Shown here: positions 9,850 through 34,492 of the stretch, piece by piece
Position numbering within the stretch: the stretch's first letter is position 1
How the letters are laid out: every line of letters starts with the position of its first letter
Source: Acidobacteriota bacterium
Lineage (GTDB): Bacteria; Acidobacteriota; Vicinamibacteria; Vicinamibacterales; JACQTH01
Direction: 5' to 3'
DNA length: 38,567 nt
Assembly: GCA_016178075.1 (NCBI GenBank)
Contig: JACOUA010000062.1
Span: forward strand, 1-38,567
Program-made: the position numbers and the translations under genes
The notes under the pieces: model-generated
The model's input: only the letters and a program-made list of their open reading frames with translations
What the model was told of the DNA's origin: nothing
Databases searched by the model: none

Positions 9850-12342
9850 GTGTCGGGTCTGACGAAGTTCAGCGTCGCCATTCTGTGTATTGCGCTCGTC
9901 ACGCTCAGCCTCGCGGCCGCCAGCCAGCAGGCCGCGCCCGGTCAAGCGCCTCGCCCGGCGCCCGCTTTGGCCGTGGCGCATGACAGCCGCGCACTTTCGG
10001 CCGAATCACAGAGCGCGCTGGTCACTCAGTACTGCGTGGTCTGCCACAACGACAAGAACAAGGACAAGACCGCGGGCCTGACGCTCGCCGGCTTCGATCC
10101 GGCTCGCCTCGAGGAGCGAGCCGAAATCGGCGAGAAGATGATCCACAAGCTGCGCGCCGGCATGATGCCGCCGCCGGGCGCGCGCCGGCCGGACGCCGAC
10201 ACGATCAAGGCGTTCGTGACGGCGCTCGAGACGCGCATCGATCAGGCCGCCGCGCTTCGTCCGAATCCAGGCCGCCGAAGCTTCCAGCGTCTGAACCGGG
10301 CCGAGTACGAGCGGTCGGTCCGCGACCTGCTGGACCTCGACGTCGACGTCAACGCGTTTCTGCCGCCCGACACCATCAGCCACGGCTTCGACAACATCGC
10401 CGAAGCGCAGACGTTCTCGCCGACCCTGATGGAAGGCTATCTCCGGGCGGCGGCCAAGATTTCCAGCCTGGCGCTGGGCGATCGGACGGCGAGCCCGACC
10501 GAGGCGACCTACAAGGTGCCGCGCACGCAGTCGCAGATGCACCACATCGAGGGGACGCCCTGGGGCACGCGCGGCGGCCTCGCGATCAGCCACATCTTCC
10601 CGGCCGACGGCGAGTACAGCTTCCGAATCATGATGCACGGCGTGCCGACGGGTCAGCTGTACGGCGGCGCGTTCGGCCGCAACGAGCAGATCGAGGTGTC
10701 GATCAACGGCGAGCGCGTGGCGCTCCTCGACGTCAACTACCGGATGTCGGAGACCGACAAAGAAGGGCTCAACATCACGACGCCGCGCATCCACGTCACG
10801 GCGGGCCCGCAGCGTGTGGCGGCCGCGTTCCTCCAGCGCTTCGACGGCCCGGTGGACGACGTGATCGCGCCCATCGACTACACGCTGTCCGACACCGAGA
10901 GCGGGAGCTCGTTCGGCATTACGACGCTGCCGCACCTACGCGACTTCAGCATCACCGGGCCGTACCAGGTCACAGGCGTCTCCGATACGCCGAGCCGGCG
11001 CAAGGTGTTCACCTGCCGTCCGACCGCGGCCGACGAAGAGCCCGAGTGCGCGGCGCGCATCGTCAAACAACTGGCCGCGGTCGCCTATCGCCGGCCCCTG
11101 AAGCCTCAGGAATTCGAGAGCCTGATGTCCTTCTATGAGCGCGGCCGCACGGACAAGGACTTCGAGGGGGGGATCAAGGCGGCGCTGCAGGCGATGCTGG
11201 CGAGCCCGCACTTCCTCTTCCGGCTCGAGACGATGCCGGCCGGCGCGAAGCCGGGTCAGAACTACCGGATCGTGGATCTCGACCTCGCGTCGCGGCTCTC
11301 GTATTTTCTCTGGGCCGCGAGCCCCGACGCCGACCTGCTGAAGGTCGCGGCGAGCGGCACGCTCAGGACGCCGGCAGTGCTCGAGAAACAGGTGCGGCGC
11401 ATGCTCGCGGACCCGCGGTCGGAGGCGCTCGCGACGCGTTTCGCCTCGCAGTGGCTGCGACTGCAGGACGTCGACAAGATTCGTCCGGACGCCCTCCTCT
11501 ACGCGTCCTACGACAACGAGCTGGCCGAGTCCTACAAACGAGAGACCGAGCTCTTCTTCGACAGCATCGTGCGCGAGGACCGCAACGTGCTCGACGTCCT
11601 GACCGCGGACTACACCTTCGTCAACGAGCGTATTGCGAAGGTGTACCGGATCCCGAACGTCATGGGCCACGAGTTCCGACGGGTGACGATCGCGGACGAG
11701 GCGCGGCGAGGCATTCTGGGCCACGGCAGCGTCCTGATGCAGACGGCCGTAGCGGATCGGACCTCGCCGGTGCAGCGCGGGAAATGGATCATGGAAGTCC
11801 TGCTCGGGTCACCGCCGCCTCCCCCGCCGCCAAACGTGCCTCTGTTCGACGAGACCAAGGCGGTCGCGGACGGCGGTCGCACGCTTTCGGTACGCGAGCG
11901 CATGGAAGAGCACCGAAAGAACCCGGCCTGCACGTCGTGTCACCGCGTGATGGATCCGCTCGGCCTCGCGCTCGAGAATTTCGACGTTGTCGGCGCGTGG
12001 CGGATCAGGGACAACGGCGTCGTCGTGGATCCGTCGGGCAAGCTGTACGACGGCACGGATCTGAACGGCCCCGCCAGCCTGCGCCGCGCGCTCTTGAACC
12101 ATTCGGACTCGGTGCTCCTCAACTTCACCGAGAACCTGATGGCGTACGCGCTCGGCCGTCCGGTCGAGTATTTCGATCAGCCGGCGATCCGCGCGATCGT
12201 GAAGAAGGCGTCGCAGAGTGACAACCGGTTTTCGTCATTGGCCCTTGGGATCATCAACAGCGCGGCGTTCCAGATGAGCCAGGCGGAAGCCGTCCTGACC
12301 GAAGAAGCTCCATCACCCGGACGTCCCGAGAAGAACAGGTAG
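9850..12342 (+). CDS. DUF1592-family secreted haem protein (DUF1587/1595/1592/1588/1585 architecture)
   Basis: The protein has 830 residues from GTG 9850, with AGGGAG just upstream. It has a Sec signal peptide (FSVAILCIALVTLSLAAAS), then a cytochrome-c type site CVVCH at residue 62 in a short N-terminal haem domain. DUF1587-like (RLNRAEYERSVRDLLDLDVD), a carbohydrate-binding-like middle part, DUF1595, DUF1592 (SRLSYFLWAASPDADLL), DUF1588 with a second CxxCH (CTSCHRVMDPLGLALENFD, residue 694) and C-terminal DUF1585 complete the layout. This is the standard planctomycete/acidobacterial order. The proteins are thought to act in the periplasm, possibly in polymer degradation or redox chemistry; no reaction is proven. 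The following gene, 9 bases on, is the invariable DUF1552 partner. No deletion is visible. Confidence 0.93.
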   Translation: MSGLTKFSVAILCIALVTLSLAAASQQAAPGQAPRPAPALAVAHDSRALSAESQSALVTQYCVVCHNDKNKDKTAGLTLAGFDPARLEERAEIGEKMIHKLRAGMMPPPGARRPDADTIKAFVTALETRIDQAAALRPNPGRRSFQRLNRAEYERSVRDLLDLDVDVNAFLPPDTISHGFDNIAEAQTFSPTLMEGYLRAAAKISSLALGDRTASPTEATYKVPRTQSQMHHIEGTPWGTRGGLAISHIFPADGEYSFRIMMHGVPTGQLYGGAFGRNEQIEVSINGERVALLDVNYRMSETDKEGLNITTPRIHVTAGPQRVAAAFLQRFDGPVDDVIAPIDYTLSDTESGSSFGITTLPHLRDFSITGPYQVTGVSDTPSRRKVFTCRPTAADEEPECAARIVKQLAAVAYRRPLKPQEFESLMSFYERGRTDKDFEGGIKAALQAMLASPHFLFRLETMPAGAKPGQNYRIVDLDLASRLSYFLWAASPDADLLKVAASGTLRTPAVLEKQVRRMLADPRSEALATRFASQWLRLQDVDKIRPDALLYASYDNELAESYKRETELFFDSIVREDRNVLDVLTADYTFVNERIAKVYRIPNVMGHEFRRVTIADEARRGILGHGSVLMQTAVADRTSPVQRGKWIMEVLLGSPPPPPPPNVPLFDETKAVADGGRTLSVRERMEEHRKNPACTSCHRVMDPLGLALENFDVVGAWRIRDNGVVVDPSGKLYDGTDLNGPASLRRALLNHSDSVLLNFTENLMAYALGRPVEYFDQPAIRAIVKKASQSDNRFSSLALGIINSAAFQMSQAEAVLTEEAPSPGRPEKNR

Positions 12343-12351
12343 GGAGGCGTC

Positions 12352-13770
12352 ATGTATATCGAGCAGAAGCATCTTTCGCGTCGCACGGTCCTGAAGGGCA
12401 TGGGCGTGACCGTGGCGTTGCCATTCCTGGATGCGATGGTCCCGGCGGGCACGGCGTGGGCCAAGACTGCGGCGGGCTCGCCAAAGGTGCGGCTCCTCTG
12501 CATGGAGATGGTGCACGGCTCGGCCGGCAGCACCGCCTTCGGCATCAAGAAGAACCTCTGGGCGCCCGCCGGCGTCGGGCAGACCTTCGATTTGGGTCCC
12601 ACGAGCCTGGCGACACTCGAGCCGTTGCGTGACTACGTAACGATCGTGAGCAACACGGATGTCCGCAACGCCGAGGCGTTCGCGCTGCCCGAAATCGGCG
12701 GCGACCACTTCCGATCGAGCGCCGTGTTCCTGACCCAATCGCACCCCAAGCAGACCCAAGGGTCCGACGTCCACGCGGGCACGTCGTTGGATCAGCTCTA
12801 CGCGCAGCGGTTCGGGCAGGACACGCCAATCCCGTCGATGCAGCTGTCGGTCGAGAACGTCGACCAGGCGGGCGGGTGCGTCTACGGCTACTCCTGCGTG
12901 TATACCGACACGATCAGCTGGGCCTCCCCCACGCAGCCGCTCCCGATGGTGCGCGACCCGCGCGTTGTCTTCGATCAGTTGTTCGGCGTCGGCGCCACGG
13001 CCGAAGAGCGCCGCGCCAACCGTCGCGCCGACCGCAGCATCCTTGACTGGATCGCCGAGCAGGTCGCCCAGGTGCGGAAGGAGCTGAGCCCCGGCGACCG
13101 GGCGCGGTTGAACAAGTACCTCGACGACATCCGCGAGATCGAGCGCCGGATCCAGCAGGTCGAGGCCCGGAACTCGAGTGGCGAGCCGCGGGATCTCCCC
13201 GACGCGCCGATCGGCGTGCCCGACTCGTTCGAGGAGCACGTCAAGCTGTTGTTCGACCTGCAGGTGCTCGCTTTCGCGTCCGACAGTACCCGCGTCTTCT
13301 CGTTCAAGCTGGGGCGCGACGCCTCGGGCCGCTCCTATCCAGAGAGCGGCAACAGGACCGGCTTCCACAATGCGTCGCATCACGGCGAGCGCGAGGACCG
13401 CATCCTCGACTTCGCGAAGATCAACCGGTACCACGTCAGCCTGGTGCCGTATCTGCTCGAGAAGCTGAAGAACACGCCCGACGGCGACACCAACCTGCTG
13501 GAGAACAGCCTGGTGCTCTACGGCTCGCCGATGGGCGACTCGAATATTCACAACCACAAGCGGGTGCCGCTGTTCCTGGCCGGGCACGCTGGCGGCAAGC
13601 TGCGAGGGAACCTCCACCTCAAGGCCGCCGACGGGACCCCGATGGCCAACGTGATGTTGACGCTGCTTCACGGTCTCGGACTCGACGACCTGAAGACCTT
13701 CGGCGACAGCACCGCCGAATTCGACCTCACGTCCGTGCCGACCGAGACGACGGAATCGTCGAAGGCCTGA
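12352..13770 (+). CDS. Tat-exported DUF1552 protein
   Basis: The protein has 472 residues. The start ATG 12352 lies 9 bases after the DUF1592 stop with GGGAGG in the gap. The N-terminus is a Tat signal (HLSRRTVLKGMGVTVALPFL). The body is that of DUF1552: LCMEMVHGSAG, GGDHFRSSAVFLTQSHPKQ, HNASHHGER, NSLVLYGSPMGDSN and HNHKRVPLFLAGHAGG. Several His, Asp and Ser are in positions reminiscent of alkaline-phosphatase/sulfatase-like proteins (DUF1501 relatives), which may suggest a metal site. Tat export implies folding with a cofactor before secretion. It is co-transcribed with the DUF1592 gene and followed by the ankyrin gene after a palindromic repeat. The function is unknown. Confidence 0.93.
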   Translation: MYIEQKHLSRRTVLKGMGVTVALPFLDAMVPAGTAWAKTAAGSPKVRLLCMEMVHGSAGSTAFGIKKNLWAPAGVGQTFDLGPTSLATLEPLRDYVTIVSNTDVRNAEAFALPEIGGDHFRSSAVFLTQSHPKQTQGSDVHAGTSLDQLYAQRFGQDTPIPSMQLSVENVDQAGGCVYGYSCVYTDTISWASPTQPLPMVRDPRVVFDQLFGVGATAEERRANRRADRSILDWIAEQVAQVRKELSPGDRARLNKYLDDIREIERRIQQVEARNSSGEPRDLPDAPIGVPDSFEEHVKLLFDLQVLAFASDSTRVFSFKLGRDASGRSYPESGNRTGFHNASHHGEREDRILDFAKINRYHVSLVPYLLEKLKNTPDGDTNLLENSLVLYGSPMGDSNIHNHKRVPLFLAGHAGGKLRGNLHLKAADGTPMANVMLTLLHGLGLDDLKTFGDSTAEFDLTSVPTETTESSKA

Positions 13771-13806
13771 GCCCGCGGAGCCACGCCCAAGACCAAAGAG
13801 CCTGAG

Positions 13807-13900
13807 AAAAATGCCCACGATCACCACAGAGCTCACAGAGAACAATAGGGTTCTCTCCGTGGTCTCTGTGGGCTCTGTGGTAAAACGGGTTGTTTCACAA
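13807..13900. repeat. Palindromic CACAGAG dispersed repeat, copy 1
   Basis: AAAAATGCCCACGATCACCACAGAG and TTCTCTCCGTGGTCTCTGTGGGCTCTGTGG form a long imperfect inverted repeat followed by TAAAACGGGTTGTT. A near-identical copy in the same orientation lies at 15841-15944. It is able to fold as a strong hairpin and may act as a terminator of the DUF1592-DUF1552 transcript. Confidence 0.85.
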
Positions 13901-13975
13901 GCTCCAAAGACCGTCGCGCGAAGCGCGTGAAACGCGTGGGGGAACCCCCATGCGCAGTAAAGAGGAGTTCTGGAA

Positions 13976-15823
13976 ATGGTGCGAAGCATGCTTGTCAAAG
14001 GCCTCACCGTCAGCGCCGTCGCCGCGCTGTGGCTCTCGGCGCTGATGCAGGCGGCGCCGGTCAGCACGCCCGTCGCCGACGCCGCCATGCTGGGCAACAG
14101 GGACGCGGTTCGCGCCCTGTTGAAGGACGGCGCCGACGTGAACTCCGCCCAGGCCGACGGCATGACGGCGCTTCACTGGGCCGCGACCAAAGATGACGTG
14201 GAGATCGTGAAGATTCTGCTCTACGCGGGAGCGAACGTCAGAGCCACCACGCGACTCGGCGGCTACACGCCGCTCCTCCTCGCCAGCAAGAGCAGCAGCG
14301 CGGCCATGATCGAGACGCTCGTCGCCGCGGGCGCCGACCCGAACGCCACCACGACGAACGGTACGACCCCGCTCATGTTGGCGGCGGCATCCGGCAAGGT
14401 CGACGCGGTGAAGGCGCTGCTCGGTCGCGGCGCGAATGTGAACGCCGCGGAGAACGCCAAAGGCGAGACGGCGCTGACCTTCGCGGCCGCGTACGGCCGC
14501 GCGGACGTGATCCGCGCGCTCGCGTCACACGGCGCCGACCTCAAGACGACGACGAAGGTGCTCGACCTCGCCCAGTTCGCACGGGAAGAGTTGGAACGCT
14601 TCGCGCAGCAGGGCGGCGGCGGGGGCGGTCGCGCCGGCCGCGGCGGGCAGCCCGAACCCCAGCAGGGTGCGCAACCGGCGGCGGGCCAGCCTGCCGAGGC
14701 CAGCCGCCAGCCTGGACAGCGCGGCGCCGCCGCGCCGGCACCAACCGAACCACAGGGAGCGCCGGCGCCGGGCCGGGGAGGCCGTGGTGGTGGGCGCGGT
14801 GGTCCGCAGGTGCCGGGGGTCGATCGCAGATTGACGTATCCCGAGCAGGTCGGCTACCACGGTGGTCTTGCGCCTCTGCACATCGCGGCGCGGCAGGGCT
14901 CGACAGACGCGGTGCAGGCGCTCGTCGACGCAGGCGCCGACATCAACCAGCGGAGCGCGGGTGACAAGATTACGCCGATCATCATCGCGACCATCAACGG
15001 ACACTTCGATCTCGCGAAGCTCCTGCTCGACAAGGGCGCCGATCCGAATCTGATCGAGGACAACGGCGTCACGGCCCTCTACGGCGCCATCAACTGTCAG
15101 TGGGCCCCGAAAGCGCTGTACCCGCAGCCTCGCGCCTACGAACAGCAGCAGACGACGTATCTGGATCTGATGAAGGCGCTGCTCGAAAAAGGTGTCAATC
15201 CGAACGCCCGCGTGACGAAGAAAGTGTGGTACTCCGGCTACAACTTCGACCTCTCCGGCGTGGACGAGGCGGGCGCGACGGCGTTCTGGCGCGCCGCCTA
15301 TGCGGCCGATGTCGACGCGATGAAGCTGCTCGTGGCGTACGGCGCCGACCCGAACATCTGGACGATGAGAACCCCGGGGCGGCCGCGCGCGGGCGACCAG
15401 GAGCGCGAGGCCAGGGACGTCTCCGGGCTCCCGCCGGTGCCGGTCGGCGCGCAGGGCGTGCCACCGCTCCTGGCGGCCGCGGGCGTCGGGTACGGCGAGG
15501 GCTTCGCCGCGAACTCTCACCGGTTCGCCCCCGGCGGCCAGCTCGCCGCGGTCAAGTATCTCGTCGACGGGCTGCACGTCGACGTCAACGCGCGCGACCA
15601 CGAGGGCAATAGCGCTTTGCATCACGCCGCCGCGCGTGGCGACAACGACATGATCGTCTACCTCGTCTCCAAAGGCGCCGACGTCATGGCCGTCAGCCGT
15701 GAGGGCCGGACCACGGTCGACATGGCCAACGGGCCCGTGCAGCGGATTCAGCCGTTCCCCGAAACGATCAAGCTGCTCGAGGGCATGGGCGCGAAGAACA
15801 ACCACCGCTGCGTGTCCTGCTGA
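13976..15823 (+). CDS. Secreted ankyrin-repeat protein
   Basis: The protein has 615 residues, with AGAGGAG 9 bases before ATG 13976. A signal peptide (LVKGLTVSAVAALWLSALMQAA) is followed by ankyrin repeats of the form DGMTALHWAATKDDVEIVKILLYAGANV, TPLLLASKS..GADPNATT and ETALTFAAAYGRADVIRALASHGADL (about residues 40-200). There follows a Gly/Gln/Pro/Ala-rich linker (about 210-290). A second ankyrin block (LAPLHIAARQGSTDAVQALVDAGADIN onward) runs to the end, closing in HRCVSC. Ankyrin arrays bind proteins; this one is exported. It is the usual third member of the DUF1592-DUF1552 group in these bacteria. It sits between two direct copies of one palindromic repeat. Confidence 0.93.
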   Translation: MVRSMLVKGLTVSAVAALWLSALMQAAPVSTPVADAAMLGNRDAVRALLKDGADVNSAQADGMTALHWAATKDDVEIVKILLYAGANVRATTRLGGYTPLLLASKSSSAAMIETLVAAGADPNATTTNGTTPLMLAAASGKVDAVKALLGRGANVNAAENAKGETALTFAAAYGRADVIRALASHGADLKTTTKVLDLAQFAREELERFAQQGGGGGGRAGRGGQPEPQQGAQPAAGQPAEASRQPGQRGAAAPAPTEPQGAPAPGRGGRGGGRGGPQVPGVDRRLTYPEQVGYHGGLAPLHIAARQGSTDAVQALVDAGADINQRSAGDKITPIIIATINGHFDLAKLLLDKGADPNLIEDNGVTALYGAINCQWAPKALYPQPRAYEQQQTTYLDLMKALLEKGVNPNARVTKKVWYSGYNFDLSGVDEAGATAFWRAAYAADVDAMKLLVAYGADPNIWTMRTPGRPRAGDQEREARDVSGLPPVPVGAQGVPPLLAAAGVGYGEGFAANSHRFAPGGQLAAVKYLVDGLHVDVNARDHEGNSALHHAAARGDNDMIVYLVSKGADVMAVSREGRTTVDMANGPVQRIQPFPETIKLLEGMGAKNNHRCVSC

Positions 15824-15840: not shown

Positions 15841-15944
15841 AAAAATGCCCCACGATCACCACAAAGCTCACAGAGCACACAGAGAACAATAGGGTTCTCT
15901 CCGTGGTCTCTGTGGACTCCATGGTAAAACGGGTTGTTGCACAA
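15841..15944. repeat. Palindromic CACAGAG dispersed repeat, copy 2
   Basis: This has the same sequence order as copy 1 at 13807-13900: AAAAATGCCCCACGATCACCACA, ACAGAGAACAATAGGGTTCTC, CCGTGGTCTCTGTGG and TAAAACGGGTTGTTGCACAA. It carries a 10-base longer left arm. It follows the ankyrin stop by about 17 bases and separates it from the convergent peptidase gene, so a terminator role is plausible. Confidence 0.85.
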
Positions 15945-15965
15945 CCTCTTTAGCTCTACGAACCG

Positions 15966-24026: not shown

Positions 24027-24180
24027 GTTGAGACCGCGCGAGCGCAGTTCTGGAAAAACGCGCCGCAGGCCAGACTGCCGCGCAGGTCAGCACTTGACCG
24101 GCGCGGGTCGCTCAGCGCGGCGCCGAAGGCGTGTTTTCCGCGCGGCCGATAGGGGCGAGCACCAAACTGACCTGCTACCC
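24027..24180. repeat. Dispersed repeat, copy A (related to the MITE at 32846-33159)
   Basis: It shares TTCTGGAAAAACGCGCCGCAGGCC, AGACTGCCGCGCAGGTCAG, CCGAAGGCGTGTTTT and the right end GGGGCGA-CACCAA-CTGAC-C-CTACC with the element at 32846-33159. It lacks a matching left terminal repeat and the nested insertion. It contains the hairpin GCGCAGGTCA..TGACCGGCGC. It is probably a decayed copy. Confidence 0.8.
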
Positions 24181-24777: not shown

Positions 24778-27603
24778 ATGCCCCCCGATCAATCGCGGCC
24801 TTCCGTATCGCCCGCCGTCCTCGCCGGGTTCTTTGCGCTGCTTCTGAACTCCGCCTACCTTGCCGCGTTCGCGCACGCGTCGGTGTTCTATTTCATGAAC
24901 GTCGGCGTGCACCCGCTGGTCGGCCTCGGCCTGGGGGTGATCCTGGCGCGCCGGTTCGCGTGGCGCGGGCTTCGCGCCTCGTCTTCGCTCCTGACTGCCG
25001 GTGTGCTGGGCCTCGCGCTTGGGCTGATCCTGGGCGTGGCTGTTCTGGTGTTCGGGGCGACGCGCCCGTACCGCGCGCTGCTGCAGGCGCACATCCTCGC
25101 GTCGACTGCCGGCGCGGCGTTGGTGACCATTCATCTCTGGCGGGCGGTGTCGCAGGGACGGGCCGCGGCCCTGCTGGTTCGGCTGGCCGTCTCCGCGGCG
25201 ATCATCGCGGCCGGCGCAGCGCTCGTCTTGCGTCTGGGCCGCAGCGAAGATCGTCGTCAGGCCTATCGCATCGAGAACCCCACGGTCGTGCCGTCCAGCA
25301 TGGATCAGGAAGGCAGCGGCCCCACGAGCCCGTTCTTCCCTTCGTCCGCCGATACAAACGTCCGGGGTATCATCCCCGCCAACTTTTTCCTCACGAGCGA
25401 GAACTGCGGGCGGTGTCATCGCGACGTCTACGAGCAGTGGAGCTCGTCGGCGCATCATTTCTCGTCGTTCAACAACCAGTGGTACCGCAAGTCGGTCGAG
25501 TACATGCAGGACGTCGTCGGCACCCGGCCCTCGAAATGGTGCGCCGGTTGCCACGACCACGCGGTCTTTTTCAACGGCCGTTTCGAGCGGCCTATCAAAG
25601 AGCAGATCGAGACCCCCGAAGCGCACGCGGGTCTGGCGTGCACGTCGTGCCATTCCATCACGCGCGTGAGGAGCACGATGGGGCAGGGGGATTTCGAGAT
25701 CGAGTACCCGCCGCTGCACGACCTGGCCGTCAGCCACAACCCCGTCCTGCGTGCGGTGCACGACAAGCTCCTGGAGCTGGATCCGGAGCCTCATCGTGAG
25801 ACGTTCCTGAAGCCGTTCCACCGCGAGCAGACGCCGGAGTTCTGCTCGACCTGCCACAAGGTCCACCTCGACGTGCCGGTCAATGCGTACCGGTGGTTCC
25901 GCGGCTTCAACGACTATGACAATTGGCAGGCGTCCGGCGTCTCAGGTGAGGGCGCCCGCTCGTTTTATTACCCGCCCAAGTCGCAGAAGTGCGCCGATTG
26001 CCACATGCCGCTGGTCGATTCGAACGACCCGGCGGCGAGGAACGGAAGGATCCGATCGCACCGCTTCCCGGCGGCAAACGCCGCCTTGCCGTTTGTCAAC
26101 GGTGACTCGGCTCAGCTCACCGCCGTTCAGGCCTTCCTGAAAGACGGGCAAGTCAGCGTCGACATCTTTGGCATCGTCCGCGCTGGCGCGCCAGCCGCCG
26201 GAGCGGAGATTGGAGGTCGGGAGGGCGCCGAGACTCAGATCGCCAGCACGTTCGCTGTGGGCGAGGAATCGATGGCCTTTGGCGCCGAGCGGGCGCTGAT
26301 GACCGCCCCCGCCGAAGTCGTCGGCCCCCTCGGGAAGGTGCCGGTGTCAGTCCACCGGGGGGAATCGGTCCGGCTGGAAGTGGTCGTCCGCACGCGGAAA
26401 GTGGGTCACTTCTTCCCCGCCGGCACTGTCGATGCGTTTGACGTGTGGGTCGAGCTGGAAGCGGTCGACGATCGCGGCCGCAAGGTGTTCCACAGCGGCG
26501 CGCTGGAGAATGGATCGGGCCCTGTCGATCCGGGAGCACATTTCTATCGCAGCCTGCTGCTCGACGAGCATGGAAACCGCATCAACAAGCGAAACGCATG
26601 GGCGGCCAGATCGGTCGCGTACGTTCGGCTCATTCCTCCCGGTGCCGCCGATACGATCCACTATCGCCTGGATATCCCTTCGGACGCCGGCGATCGGATC
26701 TTCCTGACGGCGAAAGTCAATTACCGAAAATTTGCCTGGTGGAACACACAGTGGGCGTTTGCGGGAGTGCGAGATCCCGGTCAGCCGCGGTTTCCGCTCG
26801 CTCCCGGGTACGACGATGGCCGATGGGTGTTCGTGGGGGATACGTCGCGGGTCTCGGGCCGGCTGAAAGCCGTCCCGGATGTCCCCATCACCGTGATGGC
26901 CGAAAACAGAGCGAGCTTGACGGTCCTTCCCGAAGACGCCGCGCGTCGAGAAGCGCAACGCCTGCTCGACCCGTCGGTGCGCGAGCGTTGGAACGACTAC
27001 GGCATCGGGTTATTGTTGCAAGGCGACATCAAGGGCGCCGAGTCGGTCTTTCTCGAGGTGACCCGGATGGAGCCGGGCTATGCGGACGGCTGGGTCAACG
27101 TGGGTCGGGCGCGCATCCAGGAAGGGAACATGGCCGGCGCCGAGCAGGTGCTGCGCGCGGCGCTCGACGTGGATCCGCAGCTCGCCAAGTCGCATTTCTT
27201 CCTGGCGACGGCCCTCAAAGCGCTCGGTCGGTACGATGAGGCCGTCGCGCATCTCCGGCACGCATCGTCGCAGTACCCGCGGGACCGCGTGGTCCTCAAC
27301 CAGCTCGGGCGCGTGCTGTTTCTGAAGAGGCGCTACGACGAGGCGATTGTCCAGTTCCAGAGGGTGCTCACCATCGACCCGGAGGATCTGCAGGCACACT
27401 ACAACCTCATGCTGTGCTACCAGGGGCTCGGGGATTCCGCCAACGGCGACAAGGAGCGTGTGTTGTATTTGCGCTTCAAGGCGGACGAATCCTCGCAGGC
27501 CATCACCGGGAACTTCCGCCGTCTCAATCCGGAGGACAACAACGAGCGGCAGCAGATTCACGAGCACCGGTCCGGCCCGCTGCTCCCCTCCCTGTATCCG
27601 TGA
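24778..27603 (+). CDS. Membrane-anchored pentahaem cytochrome c with C-terminal TPR repeats
   Basis: The protein has 941 residues. Residues 10-150 hold four to five transmembrane helices (AVLAGFFALLLNSAYLAAF; GVLGLALGLILGVAVLVFG; LLVRLAVSAAIIAAGAALVL). The exported part has five CxxCH sites at residues 210 (CGRCH), 255 (CAGCH), 288 (CTSCH), 356 (CSTCH) and 405 (CADCH), spread as in cytochrome c554/NrfB-like multihaem folds with extra His ligands. There follows a beta-rich region (GKVPVSVHRGESVRLEVVVRTRKVGHFFPAGTVD) and, from about 740, TPR repeats (WVNVGRARIQEGNMAGAEQVL; YDEAIVQFQRVLTIDPED). The role is probably periplasmic electron transfer coupled to a protein-binding scaffold; the partner is unknown. 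The stop overlaps the start of the next gene (TGATG), so the two are translationally coupled. Confidence 0.92.
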   Translation: MPPDQSRPSVSPAVLAGFFALLLNSAYLAAFAHASVFYFMNVGVHPLVGLGLGVILARRFAWRGLRASSSLLTAGVLGLALGLILGVAVLVFGATRPYRALLQAHILASTAGAALVTIHLWRAVSQGRAAALLVRLAVSAAIIAAGAALVLRLGRSEDRRQAYRIENPTVVPSSMDQEGSGPTSPFFPSSADTNVRGIIPANFFLTSENCGRCHRDVYEQWSSSAHHFSSFNNQWYRKSVEYMQDVVGTRPSKWCAGCHDHAVFFNGRFERPIKEQIETPEAHAGLACTSCHSITRVRSTMGQGDFEIEYPPLHDLAVSHNPVLRAVHDKLLELDPEPHRETFLKPFHREQTPEFCSTCHKVHLDVPVNAYRWFRGFNDYDNWQASGVSGEGARSFYYPPKSQKCADCHMPLVDSNDPAARNGRIRSHRFPAANAALPFVNGDSAQLTAVQAFLKDGQVSVDIFGIVRAGAPAAGAEIGGREGAETQIASTFAVGEESMAFGAERALMTAPAEVVGPLGKVPVSVHRGESVRLEVVVRTRKVGHFFPAGTVDAFDVWVELEAVDDRGRKVFHSGALENGSGPVDPGAHFYRSLLLDEHGNRINKRNAWAARSVAYVRLIPPGAADTIHYRLDIPSDAGDRIFLTAKVNYRKFAWWNTQWAFAGVRDPGQPRFPLAPGYDDGRWVFVGDTSRVSGRLKAVPDVPITVMAENRASLTVLPEDAARREAQRLLDPSVRERWNDYGIGLLLQGDIKGAESVFLEVTRMEPGYADGWVNVGRARIQEGNMAGAEQVLRAALDVDPQLAKSHFFLATALKALGRYDEAVAHLRHASSQYPRDRVVLNQLGRVLFLKRRYDEAIVQFQRVLTIDPEDLQAHYNLMLCYQGLGDSANGDKERVLYLRFKADESSQAITGNFRRLNPEDNNERQQIHEHRSGPLLPSLYP

Positions 27604-29327
27604 TGCTCCGCGCGGCTTGTATGCTGTCGTTGGGTTTGGTGGCTGGCGGCATCATCCAACCTGCTTCGTCCCCGCAGAAGGCCCTCGGTTCGGTCACCTT
27701 CGTCGACGTAACGGCGAAGTCCGGTATTCGCTTCCGTCACAACAGCGGTGCGTTCGGCAAGAAGTACCTGCCGGAAACGCTGGGATCGGGGGTGGCCTTT
27801 CTGGACGTCGACGGTGACGGGTGGCAGGACATCTTTCTCGTCAACTCGACGAATTGGCCGGGCCGGAAGGGTAAACCGTCGTTCTCCGCGCTCTACCGGA
27901 ACAAGGGCGATGGCACCTTCACCGATATCACGACGGCGTCTGGACTGCAGGTGGAGCTGTACGGGCTCGGCGTTGCGAGCGCGGACTATGACAACGACGG
28001 CCTGGCCGATCTCTACATCACCGCGCTCGGGCGCAACCGCTTGTTTCGAAATCTTGGTGGATCCCGGTTCGCCGATGTCACCGACGGCGCCGGCGTCGGC
28101 GACCCGGGGTTTTCGACGAGCGCCGCCTGGATCGACTATGACCGCGACGGACGGCTGGACCTGTTCGTCTGCAACTACGTCGAGTGGTCCATCCAGAAGG
28201 ACCTGTTCTGCACGCTGGACGGGACAACGAAGTCGTACTGCACGCCGGAATCGTACGTGGGCCAGAGCTCTACGCTGTATCGGAACAGGGGCGACGGGAC
28301 GTTCGAGAACGTCACGCGCGCCGCCGGCTTGTACGATCCCGCGTCCAAGGCCTTGGGTGTGGCCCTCATCGACTACGACAACGACGCGTGGATGGATCTG
28401 TTCATCGCGAACGACACCCAGCCTAATCGGCTGTATCACAACAATCGCGACGGAACCTTCAACGACGTCGGCGTGATGGCGGGCGTGGCGTTCAATGAAG
28501 GCGGCGTGGCCCGGGCCGGCATGGGGGTCGATGCGGCGGACTATGACGGCTCGGGGCGCCAGAGTTTGATTATCGGGAACTTTTCGAACGAGATGATGGC
28601 CTTGTACACGAATGAGGGCACCGGACTCTTCATCGACGAAGCGCCCACGACCACAATCGGCAAGGCCTCGCTCCTGACCCTGACCTTCGCCTGTTTCTTC
28701 TTCGACTACGATCTCGACGGGTTGGTGGACATCTTCGCCGCCAACGGCCACGTGGCCGATGACATCGGACGCGTGCAGCCGACGGTCAAGTATGCGCAAC
28801 CGCCCCACCTCTTCCGCAATCTCGGGTCGCGCCACTTCGACGAGGTCACCGACCGCGTCGGTCCGGCCTTCAAGCGCGCGATGGTCGCCCGCGGTGCGGC
28901 GTATGGCGATTTCGATCGGGATGGTGATCTGGATCTGCTCGTGACGACCAACAACGGGCCGCCCCGACTGCTTCGCAACGATGGGGGCAACCACCTGAAC
29001 CGTCTGCGGGTCTCGACGATCGGCACGAGCTCGAATCGGGACGGAATTGGGACGAAGATTCAAGCGCTCATTGGGGGCAAGCCTGGCCCCTGGGCGATGG
29101 TGAAGACCGGATCGAGCTACTGCTCACAAAGCGAGCTGCCCCTCACACTGGGCCTCGGGACGGTGTCCAGGATCTCGGGCCTGCGCGTCACGTGGCCGAA
29201 CGGTCGTGTCGAAACCCTTCCGGCGACGGACGCCAATCAGGCCATCACGATCCAGGAGGGAAAAGGTATCATCCGCGCCGTGCCTTACGGACCGACGGGC
29301 GTTCCACCCACCACTTTGGCCCGATAG
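27603..29327 (+). CDS. CRTAC1-family FG-GAP/UnbV-ASPIC secreted protein
   Basis: The protein has 574 residues. ATG 27603 overlaps the cytochrome stop (TGATG). The track ORF begins too early. It has a signal peptide (MLSLGLVAGGIIQPA). FG-GAP/VCBS calcium-binding repeats follow: AFLDVDGDGWQDIFLVN, ASADYDNDGLADLYIT, AWIDYDRDGRLDLFVCNYVEW, ALIDYDNDAWMDLFIAN, FFDYDLDGLVDIFAANGH and AYGDFDRDGDLDLLVTTN, alternating with LYRNKGDGTFTDIT-type linkers. The C-terminal ASPIC/UnbV domain (SNRDGIGTKIQALIG.. LGLGTVSRISGLRVTWPNG) closes it. It is a calcium-stabilised beta-propeller of unknown role, commonly next to TPR or cytochrome proteins in Acidobacteriota. It is complete in length. Confidence 0.94.
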   Translation: MLRAACMLSLGLVAGGIIQPASSPQKALGSVTFVDVTAKSGIRFRHNSGAFGKKYLPETLGSGVAFLDVDGDGWQDIFLVNSTNWPGRKGKPSFSALYRNKGDGTFTDITTASGLQVELYGLGVASADYDNDGLADLYITALGRNRLFRNLGGSRFADVTDGAGVGDPGFSTSAAWIDYDRDGRLDLFVCNYVEWSIQKDLFCTLDGTTKSYCTPESYVGQSSTLYRNRGDGTFENVTRAAGLYDPASKALGVALIDYDNDAWMDLFIANDTQPNRLYHNNRDGTFNDVGVMAGVAFNEGGVARAGMGVDAADYDGSGRQSLIIGNFSNEMMALYTNEGTGLFIDEAPTTTIGKASLLTLTFACFFFDYDLDGLVDIFAANGHVADDIGRVQPTVKYAQPPHLFRNLGSRHFDEVTDRVGPAFKRAMVARGAAYGDFDRDGDLDLLVTTNNGPPRLLRNDGGNHLNRLRVSTIGTSSNRDGIGTKIQALIGGKPGPWAMVKTGSSYCSQSELPLTLGLGTVSRISGLRVTWPNGRVETLPATDANQAITIQEGKGIIRAVPYGPTGVPPTTLAR

Positions 29328-29380
29328 TGGTCCGACCTAGACCACTACGTCAGCCTCAGGAGTGTCGCTGTACTGCGTTC

Positions 29381-32300
29381 ATGAACAAAGCCGCTCGTTC
29401 CTGCTGGCTGATGGCGGTTCTCGGTGTCGGGCTGTTCACAGGACATGCGGGGCGATCCGATCACCCGCAGGCGGTGAAGCCGGACGACCGGCGCGAAGCT
29501 GCGTATCGCGCCAACAACCGCGGTGTGGCGCTGCTCGAGCAATTCGCGTATCAGGCAGCGGTCGGAGCATTTCGACAGGCGATCGAGCTGGACCCGTCAC
29601 TCCGGCTGCCGCGGTTGAATCTGCCGATCGCGCTCTTCTACGCTGGCAGCGTCAAGGAAGCCACCACGCAAGCGGCCGCGGCGCGCGACAAGTATCCGGA
29701 CGCGCCACAACCTTCCTATCTGCTCGGCCTCGTCGCCCGCTCCGAGAACCGGCCAGACGAGGCGGCCACGGCGTTTCGGCACGTCCTCGAGATGGATAGC
29801 CAGGATGTCGGCGCCAAAGTGAATCTGGCCCAGGTGTACATCCAACAGCGGAAGTACGCCGAAGCGGCGACGCTCTGCGAGTCGGCGTTGGCGATCGAGC
29901 CATACAACGCGACCGCCGCGTACAACCGGGCGATCGCGTTGGTGAGGGCCGGCAGCCGCGACCGAGGGCAGGCGGCCATGCAGCGCTTTCAGGAGCTGCG
30001 CGCCAGCGCCTACTCCGTTACCTACTCTCAAAACTATCTGGAGCAAGGCCGCTACGCGGAGGCCGTCTCGTCGACAGGCGCCGAGCCGGAGCTGGTGAGC
30101 ACGGAACCACCGCCGGTCGTCTTCGCTGATGCCACGGCCAGCTTACTCGACGGCGAGGGCGGCCGGTCGGAGGCCGCTCAACTCGGGCAGGTGGCATCGC
30201 CGACTGGTGGCGTCACGCTGGCGGACATCGATGGTGATGGGGACCTTGACGTGATCAGCACGGGAGCGACCGTGCGCGTGCTGAAAAACGACCGCCCGCG
30301 CCTGGTCGACGTGACGCGACAGGTCGGACTCGCGATGGTTGGCGGCCCGACGACCGGAGCGGTGGCGGGCGACTTCAACAACGACAGCAGAATCGACCTC
30401 CTCCTCCTGGGCTCCACCGGCCAGCGGCTGTTTGTCCAAGGCGGAAACGGCGTGTTCCGCGTGGTGGATCCCAGCGTCGGGCTGACGGGCCTGCCTGCGG
30501 TCGCCCGCTCAGCGGCCTTCGTCGACATCGATCACGATGGCGACCTCGATATCTTCGTGGGAGGTCCCACAAGCCGACTGATGCGGAACAACGGGAATGG
30601 CACCTTCACTGACATCACCACGGCGTCCGGTCTCGATGGAGTCGCCGCCGTGGTGGCGGTGGCTCCGACCGACTTCGACAACCGTCGCGACATCGACCTC
30701 TTGATCGCGTCGCACGGCACGCGCCCGAGGCTTTTTCGCAATCTCCGTAACGGCTCTTTTGTCGACGTCGCCGCGTCGGTTGGCCTGCCCGACGGCGGGC
30801 CGTACACGACGATGGCGGTGGGTGATGTCAACAAGGACGGGTTCACCGACGCGTTCTTCGGTCGGGAGGCGGCCACGGGTCTCTGGGCCATCAGCGACGG
30901 GCGTGGGCGCTTCCGCCTCGAGAACGCCCCGCCGAGCTCGCAAGACACGACCGCCGCCCAGATCTTCGATTACGACAACGATGGTCTGCTCGACGTGTTT
31001 TCCATCACCCGCGATGGGCCGCGAGTCTTGCGGAATGCGGGCCGTTTGTGGCAGGAGCAGACTGGTCGCGCGCTTTCAAAGGAGGTGCAGGACGGAGCTC
31101 GAGCCGCGGGCGGCGTGACCGCCATCGCATCCGGCGATCTCGATCTCGATGGGGACACCGACGTCGTGGCCCGCCTGCAGACCGGAGCGTTGCGCATCTG
31201 GCGCAACGATGGCGGGAACCGAAACCGGTCGCTTCGCGTCCGCCTCACCGGTCGAGTCAGCAACCGTGGAGGCGTGGGCGCCAAGGTCGAGGTCCGCGCG
31301 GGAAGCCTGTATGAAAAGCTCGAGACCGCCGCAACGGCGCCGCCGACGGCGCCGGCGGACGTGGTCTTCGGGCTCGGGCGCCGCAGCGCGGCCGACGTCG
31401 TCCGAATCCTGTGGCCCGCCGGAATCCTCCAGACGGAGACGAACCTGGGCGAGGCCGTCCCTTCTGCCGGGCTGAGCATCCTGGAACTGGATCGGAAACC
31501 CTCGTCATGCCCGTATCTCTACGCGTGGAACGGCCAGCGGTTCGCGTTCGTGACCGACTTCCTCGGTGGCGGCGAGATGGGCTCGTGGGTTGCCCCGAAC
31601 GTGCGCAACGTTCCTGATCCGGATGAGTACGTTCGGATGACCGACCAGCAGTTGAAGCCGCGGGATGGCAGAGTCGAGATCCGGGTCACGAACGAGCTGG
31701 AAGAAGCCCTGTTCCTGGACGAGGTCAAGCTGCTCGCCGTGACGCACCCGGCAGAGGTCGAGGTCTACCCCGACGAGGGCATGCGAGCGAGGCCCCGACC
31801 CTTCCGGTTGTTTGCCACGCGGGACGCGCACGCGCCCATCGCCGCCATCGATGATCACGGTCACGATGTCCTCGCAAAGATTTCGCACCTCGATCGGAGT
31901 TATCCGGACGATTTCGAGCTCCTGCCGATCCGGGGCTACGCGCGCGAGCACGCCGTCACGGTTGAACTTCCGGCGGGCGCTCTGCCTGCGAACGCGGCCG
32001 GGGCACGAACCGTGCTGCTGCTCACCGGCTGGACCGATTACGCATTCTCGTCCGACAACGTGGCCGCGCATCAAGCGGGCCTGAGCCTCAGCCCGCCTGC
32101 GCTGCAGGCGGAGGGTCCCGACGGCCGGTGGCGAACCGTCGACCCTGACGTTGGCGTGCCGGTGGGCCGGCCGCAGACGCTCGTCGTGGATATCACCACG
32201 TTCCTGCGTGAGAGCCGGCGATTCCGAATCGTCACCACGATGCGGGTTTATTGGGATCGGATACTCGTGGCGACGGCGATCCCGGATGTCCCGACGCCAC

Positions 32301-32791
32301 GGGCGCTCGCGAGGCGTTCCGCGAATCTGGCGTGGCGGGGCTTCTCGGCGGAGATCACCGCGGACGGCCGCGAGCCGCTTGCCTACGACTACGACCGGAT
32401 CTTGTTCGTCTCGCCGTGGAAGCTCATGCCGGGACGCTATACGCGCGAGGGCGACGTCTCGGAGCTCGTCGCGCGCGCGGACGATCGATTCGTCGTGTCA
32501 CGGCCCGGCGACGCGTTGGCGTTGTCGTTTGACGCCTCCGCGCTGCCCCCGTTGCCTCCGCGTACTCGCCGCACCTTCCTCCTCCACAGCGTCGGCTATA
32601 GCAAGGAAATGGACCTGCACTCGGCCAGTCCAGACGAGGCGCTGCCGATACCGTTTCGAGCCATGCGTCGCTATCCGTACACATCGCCCGAGCGCTATCC
32701 CCACGACCAGGATTTCGATCGCTTCCATACGCGCGTGGTGTCCCGATCCATTCCAGCCCTCCATGCTGCAGGTCCTCTTCTCGATCGGTAG
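29381..32791 (+). CDS. TPR plus FG-GAP secreted protein with additional C-terminal domain
   Basis: The protein has 1136 residues. ATG 29381 starts the signal peptide (SCWLMAVLGVGLFTGHAG). The track ORF is 63 codons too long and overlaps the previous gene. TPR repeats (RGVALLEQFAYQAAVGAFRQAIELDP; YLLGLVARSENRPDEAATAF; YAEAATLCESALAIEP) fill about 45-230. FG-GAP repeats (LADIDGDGDLDVIST, AFVDIDHDGDLDIFVGG, IFDYDNDGLLDVFSI) fill about 270-610, and an ASPIC-like piece (GVGAKVEVRAG..) 640-700. From about residue 705 a further domain begins CPYLYAWNGQRFAFVTDFLG. It has no family I can name but is found at the end of similar acidobacterial proteins. The AGGAG 15-20 bases upstream is far for a ribosome site. 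It forms a run of three with the cytochrome and CRTAC1 genes, so a joint complex is plausible. Confidence 0.9.
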   Translation: MNKAARSCWLMAVLGVGLFTGHAGRSDHPQAVKPDDRREAAYRANNRGVALLEQFAYQAAVGAFRQAIELDPSLRLPRLNLPIALFYAGSVKEATTQAAAARDKYPDAPQPSYLLGLVARSENRPDEAATAFRHVLEMDSQDVGAKVNLAQVYIQQRKYAEAATLCESALAIEPYNATAAYNRAIALVRAGSRDRGQAAMQRFQELRASAYSVTYSQNYLEQGRYAEAVSSTGAEPELVSTEPPPVVFADATASLLDGEGGRSEAAQLGQVASPTGGVTLADIDGDGDLDVISTGATVRVLKNDRPRLVDVTRQVGLAMVGGPTTGAVAGDFNNDSRIDLLLLGSTGQRLFVQGGNGVFRVVDPSVGLTGLPAVARSAAFVDIDHDGDLDIFVGGPTSRLMRNNGNGTFTDITTASGLDGVAAVVAVAPTDFDNRRDIDLLIASHGTRPRLFRNLRNGSFVDVAASVGLPDGGPYTTMAVGDVNKDGFTDAFFGREAATGLWAISDGRGRFRLENAPPSSQDTTAAQIFDYDNDGLLDVFSITRDGPRVLRNAGRLWQEQTGRALSKEVQDGARAAGGVTAIASGDLDLDGDTDVVARLQTGALRIWRNDGGNRNRSLRVRLTGRVSNRGGVGAKVEVRAGSLYEKLETAATAPPTAPADVVFGLGRRSAADVVRILWPAGILQTETNLGEAVPSAGLSILELDRKPSSCPYLYAWNGQRFAFVTDFLGGGEMGSWVAPNVRNVPDPDEYVRMTDQQLKPRDGRVEIRVTNELEEALFLDEVKLLAVTHPAEVEVYPDEGMRARPRPFRLFATRDAHAPIAAIDDHGHDVLAKISHLDRSYPDDFELLPIRGYAREHAVTVELPAGALPANAAGARTVLLLTGWTDYAFSSDNVAAHQAGLSLSPPALQAEGPDGRWRTVDPDVGVPVGRPQTLVVDITTFLRESRRFRIVTTMRVYWDRILVATAIPDVPTPRALARRSANLAWRGFSAEITADGREPLAYDYDRILFVSPWKLMPGRYTREGDVSELVARADDRFVVSRPGDALALSFDASALPPLPPRTRRTFLLHSVGYSKEMDLHSASPDEALPIPFRAMRRYPYTSPERYPHDQDFDRFHTRVVSRSIPALHAAGPLLDR

Positions 32792-32845
32792 CGGCGCGTG
32801 TTCAGACTCGCCGTCGAGCGAAAACGCGCGATCCGCCCGGGCGGC

Positions 32846-33159
32846 CGACTACTCGGTAGTGGGTCAGATTGGTGTTCGCCCCGTTGAGGCCGCGCGAGAA
32901 CGGTTCTGGAAAAACGCGCCGCAGGCCAGACTGCCGCGCAGGTCAGAACTTGACCTGCGCGGGTCGCTAAAGGGTTTTTCACTTCGCTGTAGCGTAGTTC
33001 TCAGTTATCAGTCATCAGTTTTCAGTTATTTGCGGGCGAGATCCGAACTGAAAACTGACTACTGAGAACTGAAAACTGCATTAAAGGCGATGCCGAAGGC
33101 GTGTTTTTCCGCACGGCCGAACGGGGCGAACACCAATCTGACCCACTACCGAGTAGTCG
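32846..33159. mobile_element. MITE-like element with perfect 40-bp terminal inverted repeats (copy B)
   Basis: Left end CGACTACTCGGTAGTGGGTC (continuing 20 more bases to 32885) and right end 33120-33159 are perfect inverted copies over 40 bases. Each tip contains a small palindrome, ACTAC-TCG-GTAGT. The body has a perfect hairpin GCGCAGGTCA-GAACT-TGACCTGCGC and shares about 150 bases with copy A at 24027-24180. There is no transposase, and no target duplication is visible. It fills most of the gap between the TPR/FG-GAP gene and the FMN oxidase pair. Confidence 0.85.
32996..33079. repeat. Nested CAGTTTTCAGTT palindromic insertion inside the MITE
   Basis: AGTTCTCAGTTATCAGTCAT on the left and GAACTGAAAACTGACTACTG on the right form an imperfect inverted repeat of CAGTT/AACTG units. 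It is AT-rich against its surroundings. Copy A of the host element lacks it, so it was inserted later. Repeats of this type are common in Acidobacteriota and other bacteria. Confidence 0.75.
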
Positions 33160-33235
33160 TCCCCTGAAAGCCTGGGCTCGTGTGTGTTACCATCGCGCCC
33201 GCAAATCAGGGCTGGCACGACCAGGAGAGGATTCC

Positions 33236-34492
33236 GTGGGAACGATCGACAACCGGTGGCGCCATGGCCCCACGCGCCGCCAGGCCCTCCTGGCATTGGC
33301 CGGGATGCTGGCTGGCTCGCCACTTCTCCGCGCGCAACGAGATCCGCATCCGATAACAGGGCACAAACGGGTGCCCGGGCTCGACGAGATGATGACCGCG
33401 TTCGACTTCGAGCCGATCTGTTTCGCGAACGTGGTGTTGGCCCGATACGAGTACATGGCCCGCGCGAGCGAGTCAGAATTCACGCTGCGCCGAAATCGCG
33501 AGGCGTTCGAGTGGGTCGATCTCGTCGAGCGTCCGGGCGCGGCGACCGCCGCGCTGCAGACGTCCACCGAGGTGCTGGGGATCAAGATGGATTTTCCGAT
33601 CATGATCGCCCCCACCGCCGCGCAGCGAGACCTGCACCCTGATGCCGAGTCCGCGATGTACCAGGGCGCATCCGCCGCGAAGACGCCCATGATCGTGGTC
33701 GGTCGCTCCACGATCCCAATTGAGAAAATCGCGCAGGCCGCCACCGGTCCACGATGGTCCCAGTTCTATCCGGTGCAGGATCTGAAGATCAGCCGCGAGA
33801 CGATCGAGACCTTCCAGGCGGCGGGGGCGAGGGCGCTCGTGGTGACGGTCGATCAGCAAACGGATACCGGGTACGAGCGCGACTTGCACAATCGAAATCT
33901 CGGCGGTACCCCACGTGGCGCCTCTGGTGGCCGGGGCGGCGGTGCGCCCGAACAGGGTCGGGGCGGACGCGGTGGTGGATCAGCGGCGCCGGCTCCGATG
34001 CAGGGTCCGGCTCTGTACCGCGTCATCCCTGCCCGGCTCTGGTACACCTGGAAGTACCTCGATGACATCCGGGCGTTCACCAAGATCCCGATTCTCCTCA
34101 AAGGCATCCTGACCGCCGAAGACGCCAAGCTGTGCGTCGAACGCGGCTTCGACGGGGTCATCGTCTCGAATCATGGCGGCCGATCGATGGACTACGGACC
34201 GTCGACGTTGGAGGTCTTGCCGGAGATCGTGGACGCGGTGGGCGGAAAAATCCCGGTGCTGATCGATGGCGGCTTTCGCCGCGGAAGCGACATCGTGAAG
34301 GCGATGGCGCTCGGCGCGAGCGCGGTTTGCCTCGGGCGCGCGCCACGATGGGGCCTCGGAGCCTTCGGTCCGCAGGGCGTGCAGCGCCTGCTGGAAATCC
34401 TGCAGGCCGAGTTCCTCGAGGCCATGGCGAGAACCGGACGCACCACATTGGCGGCGCTCGACCGACGCGCGGTGAGGGTGAACTTCACATGA
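33236..34492 (+). CDS. Exported FMN-dependent alpha-hydroxy-acid oxidase/dehydrogenase
   Basis: The protein has 418 residues from GTG 33236, with AGGAGAGG 5 bases upstream. The N-terminus TRRQALLALAGMLAGSPLLRAQ is a Tat-like signal. The TIM-barrel family pattern is complete: EYMARASESEFTLRRN (substrate Tyr region), APTAAQRDLHPDAE, WSQFYPVQD (second Tyr), VTVDQQ (catalytic Asp, about 204), LLKGIL (Lys, about 288), SNHGGRSMD (base His and carboxylate-binding Arg, about 312-316) and DGGFRRGSDIV (FMN-binding Arg). It would oxidise lactate, glycolate, mandelate or a similar acid. In the variable loop it carries a low-complexity insert GGRGGGAPEQGRGGRGGG. Its stop overlaps the start of the next gene (ATGA), a paralogue. 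Confidence 0.92.
   Translation: MGTIDNRWRHGPTRRQALLALAGMLAGSPLLRAQRDPHPITGHKRVPGLDEMMTAFDFEPICFANVVLARYEYMARASESEFTLRRNREAFEWVDLVERPGAATAALQTSTEVLGIKMDFPIMIAPTAAQRDLHPDAESAMYQGASAAKTPMIVVGRSTIPIEKIAQAATGPRWSQFYPVQDLKISRETIETFQAAGARALVVTVDQQTDTGYERDLHNRNLGGTPRGASGGRGGGAPEQGRGGRGGGSAAPAPMQGPALYRVIPARLWYTWKYLDDIRAFTKIPILLKGILTAEDAKLCVERGFDGVIVSNHGGRSMDYGPSTLEVLPEIVDAVGGKIPVLIDGGFRRGSDIVKAMALGASAVCLGRAPRWGLGAFGPQGVQRLLEILQAEFLEAMARTGRTTLAALDRRAVRVNFT

Follow-up and report, generated by a model that had tools for sequence, protein, structure and literature searches.

Three consecutive genes of an Acidobacteriota genome encode a di-haem protein, a DUF1552 protein and an ankyrin-repeat protein, all of them exported, and the question raised by this locus is what these proteins accomplish together. 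The genes lie on the forward strand of a 38,567-nucleotide stretch of DNA, referred to as the window. The first (9850-12342, GTG start) encodes an exported protein of 830 residues with the domain order DUF1587-1595-1592-1588-1585. Pfam, the counts of homologues upstream of DUF1552 genes and an AlphaFold2 model support its assignment to the DUF1592/PSCyt3 (PSD2-5) family, and five of its five Pfam domains pass the curated cut-off (E-values: DUF1592 3e-43, DUF1588 8.5e-35, DUF1587 1.8e-22, DUF1585 5.8e-21, DUF1595 3.2e-20). The second (12352-13770, 472 residues) is a Tat-exported member of DUF1552 (PF07586, HXXSHH; E-value 1.9e-84, 284 bits for a cut-off of 30). The third (13976-15823), which follows 3' of DUF1552, encodes an exported protein of 615 residues with multiple ankyrin repeats above the cut-off (E-value 1.8e-66, 216.7 bits). 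Third-position GC is high in all three ORFs, which is the pattern of real genes in the source genome, and an NCBIfam search of the three proteins returned nothing useful beyond Pfam.

An earlier note, made from the sequence of the window, had described these genes as a recurring group and had named lack of co-occurrence across genomes as the observation that would count against it. Such a lack was not observed. The source genome (4.96 Mb, 457 contigs, 87% complete) contains seven DUF1552 and seven DUF1592 genes that share the same seven contigs, and an ankyrin gene comes after DUF1552 in six of the seven clusters. At the seventh (L020:7921-12643), a leucine-rich-repeat protein gene lies upstream of the DUF1592-DUF1552 pair and no ankyrin gene adjoins. 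Scanning the window's DUF1552 subtype against species genomes yielded 73 loci, chiefly from Vicinamibacterales and Gemmatimonadota, which were pooled with the loci of the source genome to give 103 DUF1552 genes for adjacency counts. The cytochrome gene is found upstream in all 100 cases with room for it (median gap 20 nt), and clusters are also found as tandem arrays of two or three. Among 247 Acidobacteriota genomes, DUF1552 is present in 44 and DUF1592 in 44, with 43 genomes having both, one each having either alone and 202 having neither (Fisher P 7e-46, indicative only since independence is assumed and relatedness ignored). On one complete chromosome (G248), 40 matches to DUF1552 are found, 39 of which have a cytochrome gene nearby and 32 an ankyrin gene within 8 kb. 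The grouping also holds at the Gemmatimonadota loci. The three exported proteins occur nearly always together in Vicinamibacterales and Gemmatimonadota; the grouping is real, and its recurrence in Acidobacteriota is far beyond chance.

The ankyrin gene might still be a frequent neighbour with no functional link to the other two, as could be argued from the seven of 92 DUF1552 genes that lack one directly downstream and from the window copy, in which a repeat separates the two genes. The remaining 85 of the 92 are nevertheless followed by an ankyrin gene at a median gap of 15 nt, and 29 of the 37 ankyrin genes of the G248 chromosome have a DUF1552 no more than 5 kb away; the intervals so defined make up ~6.5% of that chromosome (any P-value here is indicative only, independence being assumed). 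These adjacency statistics already largely refute the absence of a link, which we consider hardly credible. The larger gap of the window copy (205 nt) contains an 80-bp dispersed palindromic repeat (13825-13904), and a second copy, 93% identical, follows the ankyrin gene (15869-15948), so that the repeat flanks this gene on both sides. It forms a strong hairpin (z -6.4 and -4.0) and returned no match in Rfam; it looks like a dispersed element of the REP/MITE type. As a dispersed element with ~40 copies in the genome, it was rejected as a functional part of the module and lies outside it. Elsewhere, the window harbors adjoining TPR proteins with cytochrome c554-like and FG-GAP/UnbV-ASPIC domains (24778-32791), a 43-nt near-perfect inverted repeat with 234 nt between its arms (32843-32885 and 33120-33162) and, near it, an 86-nt stretch (32883-32968) that is 93% identical to 24027-24112. 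It also encodes an FMN-dependent dehydrogenase (33101-34492), a PQQ-type dehydrogenase (35787-37649) and an IS110-type transposase truncated at the contig end (38266-38567).

The di-haem protein possesses two CxxCH motifs on the + strand, CVVCH at 10033-10047, in a domain whose profile matches cytochromes, and CTSCH at 11929-11943, within DUF1588 and preceded by an invariant H688. Both behave as the motifs of a c-type cytochrome: the second is invariant among homologues (C694/C697/H698 kept in 99-100%) and the first nearly so (80-94%, truncated copies included). The conserved GMMPPP segment downstream of the first motif (10159-10176) may provide the axial methionine. The AlphaFold2 model of the protein has a pLDDT of 87 and a pTM of 0.86. 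Its N-terminal domain is cytochrome-like, with profile matches to cytochrome c555 and, weakly, to cbb3 CcoP chains; the X183 structure (PDB 7B21) is absent among its sequence and profile matches, in which other cytochromes appear. Foldseek analysis of the model reports a β-sandwich resembling carbohydrate-binding modules (CBM) for residues 217-376 (10498-10977, + strand), the best matches being BcsB, CBM6, CBM36 and malectin, all weak (best E-value 1e-3). Across 34 paralogues encoded on one chromosome, no domain of the mature protein varies more than this CBM-like domain (34% versus 49-63% elsewhere), a low conservation that fits diversification of the substrate.

The DUF1552 protein carries a twin arginine at residues 10-11 that is kept in 97-100% of homologues, and its match with the Pfam TAT_signal profile is below threshold. 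Its AlphaFold2 model, built with 65 sequences (pLDDT 86, pTM 0.85), retrieves the alkaline-phosphatase superfamily throughout among the PDB matches listed at E <= 0.001 (best E-value 2.1e-5, probability ~1.0, TM-scores a modest ~0.3-0.4). Nearly all of the top 50 PDB matches are sulfatases, LtaP, alkaline phosphatase, ENPP/autotaxin and similar proteins, and in a viral structure library sulfatase-like proteins rank first, at E-values slightly above 0.001. A PDB search with the sequence returned no match, and comparing sequence profiles yields a weak, non-significant similarity to sulfatases. The predicted fold is hence described at the superfamily level, as alkaline-phosphatase/sulfatase-like, and on this model DUF1552 is related to sulfatases and phosphatases but divergent from them. 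An alignment of 173 DUF1552 sequences reveals an invariant set of histidines and aspartates. The HxxSHH motif (HNASHH in the window copy, 13366-13383, + strand) is 98-100% conserved and comprises H339, H343 and H344. Together with it, H400 (accompanied by H402, 13549-13557) and H422 (13615-13617) are candidate metal ligands: H339 and H400 are invariant (100% for H400), and H343, H344, H119 and H422 are kept at 96-99% (96% for H422). The H119-FRSSAVFLTQ segment (12706-12738, + strand; H119 98%, L127 97%, T128 91%) possibly corresponds to the sulfatase signature C-x-P-S-R-x3-L-T-G, and hhalign places H119 at the position of the sulfatase catalytic cysteine; as this profile alignment is not significant, the correspondence is a lead only. 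Nothing obvious was found at the expected positions for the canonical metal-binding aspartate pair and the Ser/Thr/fGly-Cys nucleophile in the 173-sequence alignment and the weak sulfatase profile alignment. Lastly, C166/C405 and C176/C182 are each gained or lost as pairs, which suggests that they form internal disulfides.

Direct reading of the ankyrin protein reveals a Sec-like signal sequence at its start and a conserved tail, LEGMGAKNNHRCVSC-stop (15776-15820, + strand), at its end. The CxxC of this tail lies at 15809-15820, so that the window copy ends in ...NNHRCVSC. The CxxC terminates the protein in all 80 sequences of the window's subtype with an intact C-terminus, and the consensus of the tail in this subtype is LGAKNNHKCVSC. 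Both cysteines belong to the 49 nearly invariant columns of an alignment of 87 proteins (median pairwise identity 53%), and in 33 of the 80 they are the only cysteines counted in the reading frame. The second cysteine is the last residue in 73; the other seven have 1-10 extra residues, which weakens the idea that the tail works as a signal requiring a strictly C-terminal carboxylate. In the 247-genome sample, 34 of the 45 strong tail matches have a DUF1552, among the matches listed, at a distance of at most 4.5 kb, and several of the remaining 11, counted against the same matches, are at contig ends or in gene remnants. Other DUF1552 subtypes have ankyrin neighbors without the CxxC tail, and no pairing of the tail with a subtype-specific cysteine of DUF1552 is evident. 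We found no literature on ankyrin proteins with such a tail. Two further tails were observed: a paralogous ankyrin gene with an apparent frameshift (L017:6655-8265) retains an intact ...NNHRCVSC in another frame, and a 109-residue ORF on the minus strand (L126:6827-7156) joins a signal peptide through a short linker to the tail LGATNNHRCVSC. The latter is probably a gene remnant, which chimeric tail fragments in the same genome also resemble, and possibly a minimal carrier.

Could this tail attach c-type haem as a degenerate or unusual site, and could the ankyrin protein itself then be a cytochrome? The tetrapeptides CVSC, CITC and CLSC are typical of haem motifs, and one ankyrin homologue, encoded directly 3' of a DUF1552 gene on a complete Vicinamibacterales chromosome (L155:6304-8265), is fused to a genuine cytochrome c (Cytochrome_CBB3, 2.3e-12); that fusion lacks the CxxC tail. 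However, the histidine needed by cytochrome c maturation follows the CxxC in none of the 80 tails. A standard haem-c site is rejected on this ground, and an unusual one is very unlikely. The ankyrin CxxC tail, the DUF1552 fold with its invariant histidines, the variable CBM-like domain of the cytochrome and the ankyrin-cytochrome c fusion are new here.

What, then, do the three proteins do? Genes that recur near the clusters encode PQQ dehydrogenases (14 loci), HpcH/HpaI-type aldolases (13), TonB-type outer-membrane proteins (12) and GMC oxidoreductases (6). In Cellvibrio japonicus, the X183 domain of Cbp2D is a c-type cytochrome that can reduce LPMOs (PMC8981238), and growth on insoluble cellulose suffers when cbp2D or cbp2E is deleted; that study proposes a novel mechanism in which cellulose is cut directly (PMC12542752). 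In Verrucomicrobia, cytochromes of this kind often adjoin sulfatase genes and occur in domain combinations with CBMs (PMC5615132). Because of the Cbp2D data, these sulfatase and CBM associations and the PQQ, GMC and other neighboring genes, we tentatively favor, with a rough probability of 0.45, an exported, hitherto undescribed three-protein redox module of the periplasm that would act on carbohydrates or carbohydrate-bound substrates; the complex, metal, electron flow, substrate and reaction are all parts of this proposal. The di-haem protein would grip the substrate by its CBM-like domain and pass electrons between its two haems. DUF1552 would be the catalytic metalloenzyme, exported folded by the Tat pathway with its metal already in place, and its active center, in an alkaline-phosphatase/sulfatase-type fold, would be rich in histidines in place of the usual Asp/fGly-Cys set. 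Docking would fall to the ankyrin solenoid, whose flexible C-terminal CxxC may act towards its partners as a thiol/disulfide or metal (or electron) relay. The several to ~40 versions of the module per genome, diverging most in the CBM-like domain, would presumably address different substrates. The gene grouping, the DUF1552 fold with its invariant residues, the CBM-like domain and the ankyrin-cytochrome c fusion count in favor of this reading; the modest TM-scores, the weak matches to sulfatase profiles and CBMs, the lack of an evident canonical aspartate pair and nucleophile, the missing match to 7B21 and the seven DUF1552 genes with no ankyrin gene next to them downstream count against it. 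Part of what the earlier note had read in these genes is supported: a co-occurring exported group, two c-haem motifs conserved in homologues, Tat export of DUF1552 and a binding scaffold, the exported ankyrin array. The CxxC tail of the ankyrin protein and the alkaline-phosphatase/sulfatase-like fold of DUF1552 had escaped it. Its suggestion of a redox or polymer-cleaving role is consistent with the CBM-like domain, the PQQ and GMC oxidoreductase neighbors and the need for Cbp2D on insoluble cellulose. A bolder version, which we judge improbable, would see in the module a periplasmic machine of a new class, oxidative and active on carbohydrates, in which a histidine-centered metalloenzyme of sulfatase fold performs redox instead of ester chemistry, is fed by a substrate-binding di-haem cytochrome and relies on the ankyrin CxxC as a dedicated thiol or metal relay.

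The fold match of DUF1552 with sulfatases and phosphatases, as well as the proximity of Verrucomicrobia sulfatase genes to PSCyt genes, would also suit an ordinary alkaline-phosphatase-superfamily hydrolase that cleaves glycan esters of sulfate or phosphate. The cytochrome and ankyrin proteins would then only bind or anchor, and the substrate would undergo no redox reaction. Such an enzyme is unlikely here, given that no canonical Asp-Asp pair or Cys/Ser nucleophile is evident in DUF1552 and that both CxxCH motifs of the cytochrome are kept. The module could also be a pure electron-transfer unit, in which the cytochrome accepts electrons from sugar dehydrogenases of the PQQ or GMC type or delivers them to LPMO-like enzymes, and in which DUF1552 is a structural partner without catalysis. 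The reduction of LPMOs by X183 and the recurrence of PQQ and GMC genes around the clusters speak for it, but the many invariant histidines and aspartates of DUF1552 and its near-perfect co-occurrence exceed what a passive partner needs, and single-gene deletion of cbp2D or cbp2E harmed growth more than loss of the LPMO gene did (PMC12542752), which leaves this possibility doubtful.

Soil and freshwater bacteria that are themselves widespread carry the DUF1592 and DUF1552 genes in up to ~40 copies per genome, and the literature searched reports no reaction for them. The superfamily assignment of DUF1552, its conserved histidine set and the ankyrin CxxC tail provide concrete targets for mutation and a candidate three-protein complex, and the findings bear on how proteins of the Cbp2D type aid the breakdown of recalcitrant polysaccharides.

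Among known systems, the sulfatase and alkaline phosphatase superfamily resembles DUF1552 in predicted fold, whereas DUF1552 exhibits invariant histidines without a clear canonical metal/nucleophile set, and the sequence similarity is non-significant. The planctomycete-specific PSCyt3/PSD2-5 proteins of Rhodopirellula and freshwater Verrucomicrobia have the same set of Pfam domains as the window protein; their genes were reported to adjoin an unknown gene family (PMC5615132), and a secreted DUF1552 protein is listed for R. baltica (PMC2754498). In contrast, the group analyzed here stems from Acidobacteriota and Gemmatimonadota, and neither an ankyrin third member nor a CxxC tail was found described for PSCyt3 systems in the literature searched. 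The nearest studied relative is Cbp2D of Cellvibrio (CBM2-X158-FN3-X183-DUF1587-X132), along with TERTU_2913 and TERTU_3803 of Teredinibacter turnerae. In place of CBM2/X158, the window protein carries a CBM-like insert within its chain, and it is encoded with DUF1552 and ankyrin genes, whereas the discussed partner of Cbp2D is Cbp2E; its N-terminal cytochrome is analogous to X183 in architecture, although its sequence does not match 7B21. In common, these proteins possess, in this order, a small c-type cytochrome, a small Pfam DUF (DUF1587 in Cbp2D) and an X132 region, described as having no characterised homologues (PMC10916295), with a further CxxCH. They are also alike in being secreted, in carrying carbohydrate-binding domains in several cases and in their tie to polysaccharide use (PMC8981238, PMC12542752, PMC10916295).
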